Shown here piece after piece: positions 2,584-6,178 of a stretch of DNA of 64,000 nucleotides; the first letter of the stretch is position 1; the number at the start of each line of letters is the position of its first letter. This DNA comes from Olivibacter jilunii (GTDB lineage Bacteria; Bacteroidota; Bacteroidia; Sphingobacteriales; Sphingobacteriaceae). The translations under genes were made by a program, and so were the position numbers. The stretch is taken from contig NZ_LR027849.1 of the NCBI RefSeq assembly GCF_900607235.1, positions 930,001-994,000 of the forward strand. The letters are read 5' to 3'. A model generated the notes under the pieces. It was not told where the DNA came from, ran no database searches, and saw only the letters and a program-made list of their open reading frames with translations.

Positions 2584-2985
2584 TTACTCGTTTCGTCGGT
2601 CTTTCAACTCCTGCAATAGTTGCTCCCTAAATTCTCGCTCCGCTTCAAAAAATTTAGCGGTTCGTTGTGCATTTATTATAGGAATAAAAGCGTCACGATA
2701 ACGCATCTTCAAAGCTAAGACCTCCGAGTCATAGTCTAATTCACTTCTCTTTTTTCCGGTTTTAGTTCGCCGTTGATGAATCAGTGCCCTCATTTCCCGC
2801 TGGTATTGATTATATAAAGGGAAAAAACGTTCAGCATCAGCCGGACTTAAGGAAAGTTCTTTGGTTATGTAGGCTATCTTGGCAGCTTCAATCTGCTTAA
2901 ATCGATTCTGTTGATCTCTATCTTGAGCCTTCAGCGTGAAGATAGAAGCAACCAACAGTATATATGTAAAAAGTAATTTCTTCAT
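2584..2985 (-). CDS. exported small protein, partner of ECF sigma operon (LTxxQ/Spy-like, tentative)
   Basis: 133 residues with a clear signal peptide (MKKLLFTYILLVASIFTLKA, cleavage near A20-Q21), so it should be periplasmic. The mature part is short, highly charged and predicted helical, with F-x-x-I-E-A-A-K and SPADAERFFPLYNQYQREM. Composition and layout recall Spy/CpxP-type periplasmic proteins and the small proteins that Bacteroidota annotators attach to ECF sigma operons. I see no diagnostic catalytic residue. It lies 6 bases downstream of the membrane protein at 2992-3696, which is 8 bases from the sigma factor gene, so the three are almost certainly one transcript. Its role as an envelope-stress sensor is inferred from this context only. 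Confidence 0.6.
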   Translation of the reverse strand: MKKLLFTYILLVASIFTLKAQDRDQQNRFKQIEAAKIAYITKELSLSPADAERFFPLYNQYQREMRALIHQRRTKTGKKRSELDYDSEVLALKMRYRDAFIPIINAQRTAKFFEAEREFREQLLQELKDRRNE

Positions 2986-2991
2986 TTCAAG

Positions 2992-3696
2992 TTAGATACT
3001 GTAATCCAAATAGGCTTCTATATCTTCTTCTGAAAATTTGGGTTTATCCATTTGAATGACACCATCAAATTGAGCTTCAAGAAAAGCAGCGTCTCCCGGT
3101 TCACTATAATACTCCAGATAGTTCACAATTTCATTATCGGGAATGCTTTTCAAAGTACGTTCAAAATTGTTGGATTGATACTGAAAGAAACCGTAAACAC
3201 CTAAGCCGATTGCTATGCAAGCCGCTGCCGCATAGCCGATCCAGGTTAGATTCCGATTTTTCCTTCTTATTGGAAATGCAATCTCCCTTGTCTTTTCGTT
3301 TTTAGCTGTGGAAACTATCGCTTGATTGATTTTTTTATCTAATTGATCAAAATAATTTTGCGGTGTGACAAAACCCGAGGTCGTAACTTTTTCCCTTAGT
3401 TTTTCGATGAAAGGGTGATATTCAGTATCTTCAAACGTAGAATTTGCCAGTGTCAGGTTGTCTTCCTTTTCTATTTTGGCAATGATATGGTCACTAAGTG
3501 ATTCAAAATACCCGTTTGGTACAGTGAAGCTTTTCTCCATATCGGAAATGATGGAGACACGTTGCATGATGTTAGCTTCCAATCGATCAAAGTAATCCGT
3601 AGGCACAATAAATGGCGTATCCTTTGGATTAGGCGGCACCCCTTGTATGCCAGCTAAATCATCTTGATAATTACGTTCATTGTCCATAGTGCTCAT
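2992..3696 (-). CDS. single-pass membrane protein in ECF sigma operon, candidate anti-sigma factor
   Basis: 234 residues with one membrane segment near residues 151-171 (TWIGYAAAACIAIGLGVYGF), an N-terminal cytoplasmic part of about 145 residues and a C-terminal part of about 60. The N-terminal part holds three copies of a short motif: FIVPTDYFDRLE (29-40), FTVPNGYFESLS (57-68) and FVTPQNYFDQLD (109-120), consensus F-x-x-P-x-x-Y-F-[DE]-x-L. There is no zinc-binding H-x3-C-x2-C as in ZAS-type anti-sigma factors. Its position directly after an ECF sigma gene, one membrane pass and the preceding cytoplasmic region fit an anti-sigma factor of a non-zinc class. That role is inference. No catalytic motif was seen. 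Confidence 0.65.
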   Translation of the reverse strand: MSTMDNERNYQDDLAGIQGVPPNPKDTPFIVPTDYFDRLEANIMQRVSIISDMEKSFTVPNGYFESLSDHIIAKIEKEDNLTLANSTFEDTEYHPFIEKLREKVTTSGFVTPQNYFDQLDKKINQAIVSTAKNEKTREIAFPIRRKNRNLTWIGYAAAACIAIGLGVYGFFQYQSNNFERTLKSIPDNEIVNYLEYYSEPGDAAFLEAQFDGVIQMDKPKFSEEDIEAYLDYSI

Positions 3697-3704
3697 AGTA
3701 ACTC

Positions 3705-4274
3705 TTAGATATAGATTACGCTAAAAGGTTTAATCGTTATCACTAAAAAATTGTTCAATTTTTTTACGGCTAAATGATAGGATGCTTTTAGCGCACCAAC
3801 ACTTGTTCCCAGGATTTCAGAAATTTCGTCATATTTTAGATCATCGAAATATTTCATATTAAAAACCAGTCGCTGTTTCTCCGGTAAGGTTAATAAAGCT
3901 TGCTGTAATTTTAGTTGAGCTTGGTTTCCGTTGAAGTAACTTGAGGTAGTGAGGGTGTCCGACAAATAGGAAGCAGAATCATCATCTAAGGATATACTTT
4001 GATACTGCTTCTTTTTATTTAAAAATGTAATACACTCATTGGTTGCGATACGATAAAGCCATGTGTATAGCTGCGCATCGGCTCTAAAGTTCTCCAGATT
4101 TTTCCAAACTTTTACAAAAATATCCTGCACCAAATCATCCGCGTCATCGTGATCTACTACCAGCCTACGGACATGCCAGTAAATCCGCTGCTGGTATTTT
4201 TTTAGCAATAAATTAAAAGCCTCATTTCGAGTTCTTTCGTTAGAGAATTTTTCAATTATTATTGAATCTTCCAT
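3705..4274 (-). CDS. ECF-family RNA polymerase sigma factor
   Basis: 189 residues with both sigma-70 regions of a group IV factor. Region 2 runs about residues 15-85 with DADDLVQDIFVKVWKNL and the -10-binding helix FRADAQLYTWLYRIATNEC. Region 4 runs about 125-180 with LPEKQRLVFNMKYFDDLKY followed by the helix-turn-helix EISEILGTSVGALKAS. It directs RNA polymerase to a small regulon, probably responding to an envelope signal through the membrane protein encoded just downstream. It heads a three-gene operon (8- and 6-base gaps). The last dozen residues (KPFSVIYI) extend past the usual end. The upstream spacer to the transketolase genes is only 66 bases and contains a hairpin, so its own promoter must be very close to the start. 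Confidence 0.93.
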   Translation of the reverse strand: MEDSIIIEKFSNERTRNEAFNLLLKKYQQRIYWHVRRLVVDHDDADDLVQDIFVKVWKNLENFRADAQLYTWLYRIATNECITFLNKKKQYQSISLDDDSASYLSDTLTTSSYFNGNQAQLKLQQALLTLPEKQRLVFNMKYFDDLKYDEISEILGTSVGALKASYHLAVKKLNNFLVITIKPFSVIYI

Positions 4275-4296
4275 TAGAGAGCTTGATGGTTGATAA

Positions 4297-4326
4297 CAAC
4301 GGAAGGAAACCTGTTACCTTCCGTTG
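4297..4326 (-). terminator. hairpin after the transketolase operon
   Basis: CAACGGAAGG at 4297-4306 pairs perfectly with CCTTCCGTTG at 4317-4326 across a 10-base loop. It lies 14 bases past the stop codon of the transketolase C-terminal subunit. There is no strong U-run, so termination may be partial, with read-through into the sigma factor operon. Confidence 0.55.
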
Positions 4327-4340
4327 CTAACCTAAACCAT

Positions 4341-5294
4341 TTATTTTCTTTTGATAACTTTCTGAGCGGCGCTAACAATACTCGCAGCATTTAGTCCGTA
4401 TTTCTCCATTAATTGTGCAGGTGTGCCACTTTCTCCGAAGCTGTCGTTAACAGCAACATATTCTTGGGGAGCTGGATGGTTTTTAACCAACACTTGGGAT
4501 ACGCTATCACCTAAGCCGCCAAGACGGTTGTGCTCTTCTGCTGTCACCACACAGCCGGTTTTAGCCACAGACTTTAAGATTGCTTCTTCGTCCAAAGGTT
4601 TAATGGTATGAATATTTATAATTTCAGCGTCTATTCCCACTGCAGCAAGCTGTTCTCCTGCTTGAATAGCTTCCCAAACTAAGTGACCGGTTGCAATAAT
4701 CGTAACATCGGAGCCCTCGTTTACCATCCAAGCTTTGCCGATTTCAAATTTTTGATCCGGGTCGGTAAAGATTGGTACGACAGGGCGGCCGAAACGAAGA
4801 TAAACAGGACCATCGTAGTCGGCGATCGCGATCGTTGCGGCTTTTGTCTGGTTATAATCGCAAGGATTAATCACCGTCATACCGGGCAACATTTTCATTA
4901 AACCGATATCTTCCAATATCTGATGGGTAGCGCCGTCTTCGCCTAATGTTAGACCGGCATGTGAGGCACATATTTTAACATTTTTTCCGGAGTAAGCGAT
5001 AGACTGGCGGATTTGATCATAAACTCTTCCCGTGGAGAAGTTTGCGAAGGTTCCGGTGTAGGGGATTTTTCCGCCAATGGTTAAACCGGAAGCAATTCCC
5101 ATCATATTAGCTTCAGCAATTCCTATCTGGAAGAATCTTTCCGGAAAATCTTTGATGAATGCATCCATTTTTAATGATCCAACTAAATCGGCACACAGTG
5201 CAACGACATTGCTGTTTTTTTTGCCTACTTCATGTAAACCAGCTCCAAAGCCCGAACGCGTGTCTTTCTTGTCCGTATATGTATATTTCTTCAT
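4341..5294 (-). CDS. transketolase, C-terminal subunit
   Basis: 317 residues covering the pyrimidine-binding and C-terminal domains of transketolase. The conserved F-Q-I-G-I-A-E-A-N-M-M-G-I-A-S-G-L block contains the glutamate that activates the thiamine diphosphate aminopyrimidine ring. The C-terminal domain (from about residue 190) is complete. Together with the N-terminal subunit 38 bases upstream it forms a two-subunit transketolase, an arrangement common in Bacteroidota, archaea and some Firmicutes, and distinct from the single-chain enzyme of E. coli. The enzyme transfers two-carbon ketol units in the non-oxidative pentose phosphate pathway. Both halves have their own start and stop, so this is not a frameshift. 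Confidence 0.95.
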   Translation of the reverse strand: MKKYTYTDKKDTRSGFGAGLHEVGKKNSNVVALCADLVGSLKMDAFIKDFPERFFQIGIAEANMMGIASGLTIGGKIPYTGTFANFSTGRVYDQIRQSIAYSGKNVKICASHAGLTLGEDGATHQILEDIGLMKMLPGMTVINPCDYNQTKAATIAIADYDGPVYLRFGRPVVPIFTDPDQKFEIGKAWMVNEGSDVTIIATGHLVWEAIQAGEQLAAVGIDAEIINIHTIKPLDEEAILKSVAKTGCVVTAEEHNRLGGLGDSVSQVLVKNHPAPQEYVAVNDSFGESGTPAQLMEKYGLNAASIVSAAQKVIKRK

Positions 5295-5332
5295 TTCGTA
5301 ATATTGAATAGTGTATGACCAAGTCAGGTCAA

Positions 5333-6178
5333 TTAATAATCTCCTAAAGTTTCTTCAAGCTGTGCTAGTGCTGTAGCTAGCTGTTCATCATTGGGTGCTA
5401 CACCATGCCATTTATGAGATCCCATCATAAAATCAACGCCATATCCCATTTCGGTATGCATAAGAATCATAATCGGTTTTCCTTTTCCGGTACGGCTTTT
5501 CGCTTCCGTTAAGGTTTCGATGAGCTGCGCCATATCGTTACCTTTTGCCTCCAAAACATCCCATCCGAAAGCCTCCCATTTGGCTTTTAAATTACCTAAA
5601 GAAAGTACACGTTCGGTTGGACCATCGATTTGTTGACCGTTTAGATCAATCGTTGCGATAAGGTTGTCCACTTTATTATGTGGCGCATACATGGCAGCTT
5701 CCCATACTTGGCCTTCTTGCAATTCGCCATCGCCCATTAAAACATAAACCAGTTTATCATCCGCATTTAATTTTTTCGCACGGGAAGCCCCGATTGCCAC
5801 GGAAAGTCCTTGACCAAGAGAGCCAGAAGCAACACGCACACCCGGCAAATGTTCATGTGTTGTTGGATGCCCTTGCAGCCTGGAATCAATCTTTCTAAAA
5901 GTTGCTAGTTCACTTTTGTCGAAGTATCCGGCACGTGCCAAGGTGCTGTAAAATACGGGAGATATATGTCCATTGGACAAAAAGAAAATGTCTTCTCCAA
6001 TACCATCCAAGTTGAACGTAGGATTGTGTTCCATTTGATGGAAATAGAGAGCTACGAAAAAGTCTGCACATCCCAGTGATCCTCCCGGATGGCCGGACTG
6101 GCAACCATGTACCATGCGTACGATATCTCGACGTACTTGCTTTGCTATGTTTTCAAGTTTTGCTATGTCTGCACTCAT
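5333..6178 (-). CDS. transketolase, N-terminal (TPP-binding) subunit
   Basis: 281 residues forming the diphosphate-binding domain of transketolase. The TPP motif is intact: GDGELQEGQVWEAAMYAP continues to an asparagine of IDLN about 28 residues after GDG. The substrate-phosphate and TPP contacts in GHPGGSLGCADFFVALYF (near residue 30) are also present. It cannot work alone because the pyrimidine-binding half is the downstream gene (4341-5294), with which it is surely co-transcribed. A weak -7-like CTAAGATA (6208-6215, minus-strand TATCTTAG, one mismatch to TAnnTTTG) lies about 30 bases before the start. The 114-base upstream spacer also contains TTAGC-type words. Confidence 0.95.
   Translation of the reverse strand: MSADIAKLENIAKQVRRDIVRMVHGCQSGHPGGSLGCADFFVALYFHQMEHNPTFNLDGIGEDIFFLSNGHISPVFYSTLARAGYFDKSELATFRKIDSRLQGHPTTHEHLPGVRVASGSLGQGLSVAIGASRAKKLNADDKLVYVLMGDGELQEGQVWEAAMYAPHNKVDNLIATIDLNGQQIDGPTERVLSLGNLKAKWEAFGWDVLEAKGNDMAQLIETLTEAKSRTGKGKPIMILMHTEMGYGVDFMMGSHKWHGVAPNDEQLATALAQLEETLGDY

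Follow-up and report, generated by a model that had tools for sequence, protein, structure and literature searches.

The window analysed here, 64,000 nucleotides of contig NZ_LR027849.1 from Olivibacter jilunii (genome size 6.7 Mb), carries on its minus strand a run of three open reading frames separated by gaps of 8 and 6 bases (Table 1). The first of them encodes an ECF sigma factor, a short protein in which both Sigma70_r2 and Sigma70_r4_2 domains were detected above the Pfam cut-off and which is 71-92% identical to relatives from seven other genomes. Past residue ~172, following HLAVKK (window 3705-3760), its C-terminus is unlike that of any of the seven relatives compared, with a frame that continues further. 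A run of A lies near the point of divergence, and its length varies among relatives; the divergence looks like a frame change near this run, reflecting either a sequencing error or a true change of the C-terminus.

Table 1. Features of the three-gene locus, in positions of the window
Feature	Position	Strand	Description
ECF sigma factor gene	3705..4274	-	189 aa; PF04542 E 1.4e-18, PF08281 E 1.5e-16
Predicted membrane anti-sigma factor	2992..3696	-	234 aa; a single membrane span preceded by three predicted docking-helix repeats
Motif copy 1, residues 29-39, FIVPTDYFDRL	3580..3612	-	helix 35-56
Motif copy 2, residues 57-67, FTVPNGYFESL	3496..3528	-	helix 63-85
Motif copy 3, residues 109-119, FVTPQNYFDQL	3340..3372	-	copy nearest the membrane; helix 115-132
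Membrane span, residues 152-174	3175..3243	-	AlphaFold2 helix; hydropathy maximum begins at 153
Predicted periplasmic tail, residues 175-234, net negative	2995..3174	-	conserved EIxNYL and ExExYL stretches
Exported helical protein, Spy/CpxP/CnrX-like on weak evidence	2584..2985	-	133 aa
Putative signal peptide, residues 1-21, without lipobox cysteine	2923..2985	-	Q21 nearly invariant

Two transketolase genes (window 4341-6178) are found directly upstream of the sigma factor gene on the same strand. Between them and the sigma factor gene there is a strong hairpin (window about 4296-4327), with a predicted value of -24.7 kcal/mol for the 75 bases preceding the start codon; at the same place, O. 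domesticus (L128) has a hairpin distinct from this one, with T-rich sequence after it. A transketolase part lies ahead of the sigma factor gene in 50/80 named loci (median gap 21 bases) and in 19/28, 9/25 and 6/54 loci of the other sets, and the stress module seems often to ride on a central-metabolism operon. No conserved promoter ahead of the sigma factor gene was found by a simple k-mer count over 82 upstream sequences, and self-activation of the sigma factor is therefore unsupported by this count. Several of the enriched k-mers resemble transketolase coding sequence, and a sigma-70 scan upstream returned 7 sites against 5.9 in shuffles.

The membrane protein carries the strict motif F..P..YF..L at three places, starting at residues 29, 57 and 109. 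A slightly looser pattern is absent from every other stop-to-stop frame of at least 60 codons in the window. By chance, the motif would be expected at a rate of 1.5e-4 per protein of this composition, and among 200,000 shuffles of the protein, 37 contained one motif and none contained two. In the AlphaFold2 model, built with an alignment of 49 sequences, the YF of every motif is where a helix begins, and there is a single membrane helix (152-174). The mean pLDDT of this model is 71.6 and its pTM 0.25, therefore only its local helices are usable; these show each motif at the start of a predicted cytoplasmic helix ahead of the single membrane span. In the copy nearest the membrane, P112, Y115, F116 and L119 are invariant across 28 aligned sequences (that of the window and 27 others). 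In five same-genus proteins, none of the 15 core positions (P, Y, F, L and I of each of the three motifs) varies, against 39/234 invariant positions overall (hypergeometric P 1.5e-13), and just 3 of their 21 invariant cytoplasmic positions fall outside the three motif windows. Such a pattern of conservation suggests a protein built of conserved docking elements on variable linkers.

The zinc-binding motif H-x3-C-x2-C is absent from the membrane protein of the window, whose sole cysteine (C160) lies inside the span, and no class I three-helix core was detected in it, as judged by the lack of a zf-HC2 match. Residues 117-174 weakly match the NCBIfam anti-sigma factor model NF052375 (E 0.0028; 17.7 bits, where the cut-off is 100), and no Pfam or NCBIfam model reaches its cut-off with either the membrane protein or the third protein. 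The first-pass annotation of this DNA had described a module of a sigma factor, a membrane partner and an exported third gene, the partner having three motif copies before a single span, no zinc motif, and a place outside the class I (ZAS) models. The three reading frames and the sigma domains bear out the module, the motif search and the local helices of the model agree with the described layout, and the search of the window protein for class I features confirmed the remainder. Beyond the span, the predicted periplasmic tail has a net charge of -10 over 61 residues and contains two alike short stretches, EIVNYLEYY and DIEAYLDYSI, the cores of which are kept in most of the 28 aligned sequences. 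These twin stretches could possibly form a repeated contact site for the third protein.

The third protein begins with a hydrophobic, signal-like segment. Folded with AlphaFold2 including this segment, it is predicted with a mean pLDDT of 91 as helices spanning residues 2-44, 48-74 and 82-132. Against Pfam, it reaches 10.7 bits with Metal_resist, below the cut-off of 29.2, and has no match to LTXXQ. Among its relatives, weak matches at E up to 0.1 were obtained with LTXXQ (Spy/CpxP) in 14/35 (best E 4.1e-5) and with Metal_resist (CnrX/ZraP) in 13/35 (best E 1.6e-5); in a closer set of relatives, the corresponding counts were 5/40 and 10/40. Foldseek returned no match at E up to 0.001, only non-significant helical ones, and a PDB sequence search gave no match to solved Spy, CpxP or CnrX. 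The link with Spy rests on these weak profile matches, together with a structural claim made for a P. vulgatus protein. Of 168 distinct trios of sigma, membrane and third genes, counted with no control set, 166 have a tail of net negative charge and 167 a third protein of net positive charge, and no correlation between the two charges was observed across trios (in a set that includes duplicates). The third protein may equally well be a chaperone or feedback partner or a sensor. Its export, proposed in the first-pass annotation, stands on the signal-like segment; the periplasmic sensor role given to it there is no likelier than that of a chaperone or feedback partner, in view of the weak Spy/CpxP/CnrX matches.

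The membrane protein was found in 29/60 relatives, and its profile matches in 140/392 genomes of the phylum, with one match in the window's own genome. Among the loci up to L207, the family profile is matched by 179 distinct proteins, duplicates having been removed by their last 100 residues. The strong relatives among them (E < 1e-10, 155 distinct) have the third gene downstream in every case and the sigma factor gene directly upstream in 154, the lone exception (L027) sitting at a contig end. A wide occurrence of the family away from ECF genes, which had been named beforehand as the outcome that would speak against the module, was checked for and not observed, since 154/155 lie directly behind an ECF gene. 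The weaker matches (n = 24) comprise 14 with both neighbours, 4 with the sigma factor gene alone and 6 with neither. Weak phylum matches lacking a sigma neighbour (L102, L104, L115, L117, L119 and L120) or having a sigma factor gene and no third gene (L103, L109, L113 and L116) were set aside; these ten, which stay counted among the weaker matches, probably reflect the membrane span or anti-sigma factors of other types.

The same association was recovered from the other two genes. From the sigma side, 79 of the best 80 named records carry both partners, and the remaining record stops just behind the sigma factor gene. From the side of the third gene, a Spy-like gene was matched in 105/119 genomes of the class, 90 of which were taken for examination of the locus; 11 of the 15 omitted genomes are known as trios from the motif side. 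The 90 loci included 79 full trios, 2 with a sigma factor gene and no picked middle gene, 8 with no upstream sigma factor gene despite room for one, and 1 at a contig end, which makes the trio widespread in the class. This survey is not fully independent because the Spy-like profile used (A7) was built from trios. Taken together, the three genes form a conserved unit across many families of the phylum.

Within this conserved unit, the number of repeats is variable. The repeat profile found 542 copies in the 168 distinct trio proteins, and all 542 are located before the membrane span, on the cytoplasmic side, with the span located by hydropathy. Copy number was 0 in 2 proteins, 1 in 33, 2 in 33, 3 in 35, 4 in 19, 5 in 20, 6 in 20 and 7 in 6. 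In sets that include duplicate loci, the spacing between repeats is mostly 28-32 residues (commonest 31-32) and variable, and the core P-x-x-Y-F-x-x-L-x-x-x-I is common to first, middle and last copies. The class-wide survey of 79 trios gave one copy in 47, two to five in 16, and none by the strict pattern in the other 16, so that the motif is common but not obligatory. Elsewhere in the loci, a scan of 1,317 open reading frames showed the pattern in one frame of at least 100 residues other than the middle proteins and their duplicates. The three copies initially reported are thus valid for the window protein and do not hold as a rule, copy number being mostly 1 to 7 and one copy being the commonest state class-wide. 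A quickly built tree of 95 sigma factors, 79 of them taken from the survey and 16 chosen from earlier sets, requires at least 15 changes between array and non-array states, and arrays are present in 16/46 family codes.

Other forms of the middle protein were also observed. Two trios outside the window's class (L099, 1791-3143; L118, 1332-2684) combine a sigma factor gene and a third gene with a middle protein of 450 aa that has one membrane span, preceded by about seven degenerate motif-like units discernible by eye, of which the repeat profile finds two in each; these are perhaps an independent array. At the other extreme, L223, L225, L226 and L229 have beside their ECF genes a very short middle protein of 115-120 aa, in which the span is preceded by a P-FFYxRLxxxL-like helix; a weakly Spy-like gene lies before the sigma pair in L223, L226 and L229 and after it in L225. 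These short proteins may be the same anti-sigma factor in minimal form.

A regular series of repeats might also be read as a packed solenoid, such as that of leucine-rich repeats, instead of separate docking helices. In the PDB sequence search, the repeat family matched best not anti-sigma factors but the engineered protein OR464 (4psj_A, E 9.1e-5), designed with repeats of leucine-rich type, and next H12 (8fjg_A, E 0.0015), followed by the repeats of variable lymphocyte receptors and repebodies at E 0.17 and above. However, the AlphaFold2 model, albeit of low overall confidence, shows separate helices and no strands, the spacing of the repeats is mostly 28-32 residues yet variable, and numerous proteins have a single copy. 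A leucine-rich-repeat-like solenoid was therefore judged very improbable, despite an engineered repeat protein being the best match in the PDB.

The origin of the motif is suggested by trios in which it coexists with a class I domain. When 38 diverse middle proteins were scanned, zf-HC2 was matched by 4 of them (E up to 0.1). Two of the 4, from trios outside the window's class (L110 and L111), reach 26.1 and 24.5 bits with this model, against a cut-off of 22.2, and are laid out as zf-HC2, then one motif, then the membrane span. Further trios outside the class resemble these hybrids, with the proline out of register in L219. A profile of five hybrids matches RsiW (5wuq_C, E 4.6e-8) and ChrR (2q1z_B, E 1.7e-4), and in this alignment the last aligned RsiW residues, up to 71, with the sequence APADFTANVMAKL, sit opposite the motif helix; a PDB sequence search with one hybrid protein gave no match. 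Compared with the repeat family, the hybrid profile aligned with a probability of 97.1 (E 6e-11), covering the last motif and the span. In the SigW/RsiW structure, the linker and the fourth helix ending RsiW 3-72 bind region 2 of the sigma factor (PMC5358783), and binding of region 2 by helix 4 is described as general for class I (PMC7406223, PMC5358783). From the text of these two accounts, we infer that the APADFTANVMAKL stretch of RsiW corresponds to the fourth helix. Since the hybrids align with RsiW and their profile aligns with the repeat family, we conclude that the motif probably corresponds, at the level of sequence comparison, to class I helix 4, and that the lineage appears to have dropped the core and multiplied the helix. 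The placement of the module outside classic ZAS models is hence correct for the window protein, which has no class I match, and needs amending for the motif, which is linked to class I through the hybrids.

Covariation between the sigma factor and the last repeat (mutual information with APC; 180 pairs, effective number 78) did not support region 2 as the contact. Region 2 accounted for 19% of the top scores versus 41% expected, and region 4 for 2% versus 32% expected; the other top scores fall in the variable N-terminus and the linker of the sigma factor, in a scan dominated by variable columns.

The hybrids also bear on whether the middle protein inhibits the sigma factor at all. Phocaeicola vulgatus has an ECF sigma/anti-sigma pair, cirYZ, that is co-transcribed with a Spy-like gene (PMC13114119, 2026), and a second sigma/anti-sigma/Spy locus is present; after deletion of cirZ, cirY, spy and two downstream genes were the most upregulated (PMC13114119). 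Motif-bearing members are putative inhibitors and might instead be an activator, a membrane scaffold or a receptor of the Spy-like protein, but the hybrids bear a recognised class I anti-sigma core, and deleting the P. vulgatus counterpart, matched by gene order and not by sequence, raises the regulon (PMC13114119). A role other than inhibition is thus improbable.

The 234-aa protein is probably the cognate anti-sigma factor of the adjoining ECF sigma factor, a reading favoured by the gene pairing recovered from both sides, the helix-4 alignment through the hybrids, the position of all 542 repeats before the span, the derepression in P. vulgatus and the opposite charges of tail and third protein. 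The mechanism proposed is as follows. Like helix 4 of class I factors, each P-x-x-Y-F-x-x-L-x-x-x-I helix would dock on sigma region 2, and the sigma factor so bound would be kept at the membrane, away from core RNA polymerase. The lineage would have lost the class I core (helices 1-3, which bind sigma-4), and the tandem copies may compensate for this loss, either by raising avidity or by holding more than one sigma molecule. Weighing against the anti-sigma reading are the covariation scan, which gave no support for region 2, the NF052375 score far below its cut-off, an engineered repeat protein as top PDB match, the missing sign of a self-regulated promoter and the relatives lacking the strict motif; nor was a replacement of helices 1-3 identified here. 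On the periplasmic side, the basic exported Spy-like protein might contact the acidic tail and stabilise the off state; envelope stress might then draw the Spy-like protein away or trigger proteolysis of the anti-sigma factor, and the freed sigma factor could lead to more chaperone being made.

The role of the individual copies can be understood in several ways. As a tentative proposal, the array anti-sigma factor would consist of up to seven detached helices 4, each holding one sigma factor, with copy number corresponding to the capacity for storage and release. If this is true, species would differ through copy number in the threshold of their envelope-stress response and in its size. It is also conceivable, and we hold this with little confidence, that the repeats wrap a single sigma factor in a 1:1 complex, with copies on region 2 and region 4 as in CnrY, and that extra copies add avidity. 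CnrY does use separate helices for region 4 and region 2 (PMC7406223), and two or more copies are present in 133/168 distinct trio proteins; however, a single copy is found in 33/168 trio proteins and in 50/95 of the tree set. Moreover, first, middle and last copies have the same core, therefore one kind of docking site fits better than two.

A further reading, rather unlikely in our view, is that only the membrane-nearest copy docks the sigma factor and that the others bind another partner (a protease, an adaptor or core polymerase) or are expendable. It is the last copy that lines up with class I helix 4, its P, Y, F and L are those invariant in 28/28 aligned sequences, and copy number is labile, as the changes between array and non-array states on the sigma tree indicate. 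The five same-genus proteins argue otherwise, since the invariance of the cores in all three copies (15/15 positions) means that in this genus the first two copies seem to be under selection too.

The significance of this module lies in the control of ECF sigma factors in Bacteroidetes, where class I anti-sigma domains are found beside 6% of ECF genes, versus 32% overall, and where the restraint of the remaining sigma factors was left open by the class I survey (PMC7406223). A core-less anti-sigma factor with the region-2 docking helix alone, in one or many copies, would be a concrete candidate for this unexplained restraint. With natural variants of 1 to 7 copies, multivalent sequestration of a sigma factor can be tested directly, and the parts of the module could serve in tunable synthetic switches.

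In the main texts covered by a word-based literature search, no published description of the repeat was found. Among known systems, CnrX is a periplasmic helical partner described as a metal sensor, whereas the third protein here has no known metal site; CnrY is made up of two helices, with no array of repeats. The CnrH/CnrY/CnrX system of Cupriavidus metallidurans (class II) nevertheless resembles the present module in having a short helical anti-sigma factor without a zinc core (PMC7406223). No sequence link to this system was detected, and no CnrY chain is among the PDB matches of the repeat family. For Porphyromonas gingivalis, the available part of PMC5607195 contained nothing relevant. 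The CirY/CirZ/Spy system shares the order of ECF sigma factor, anti-sigma factor and Spy-like gene, and the induction of the sigma factor and spy upon deletion of the anti-sigma factor (PMC13114119). It differs in that the available portion of that account mentions no motif or repeat, and the two systems are likened by gene order, not by sequence (PMC13114119).

The closest comparison is with the class I factors (RsiW, ChrR and RsrA; zf-HC2/ZAS). The NCBIfam model NF052375 is matched by 16/38 diverse family members at E up to 0.1, and its positions 52-108 carry the last motif and the span of the window protein; the scores inspected, 14.8 to 36.8 bits, are below the 100-bit cut-off. The likeness to class I is that of a putative RsiW-type, membrane-anchored cytoplasmic inhibitor, with the motif helix falling on the alpha-4 region. 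Unlike class I factors, the window protein has neither the three-helix core nor the zinc motif, and it has three copies of the predicted docking helix. The module, comprising an ECF sigma factor, a core-less multi-helix anti-sigma factor and a Spy-like partner, would accordingly represent a new variant of class I control.
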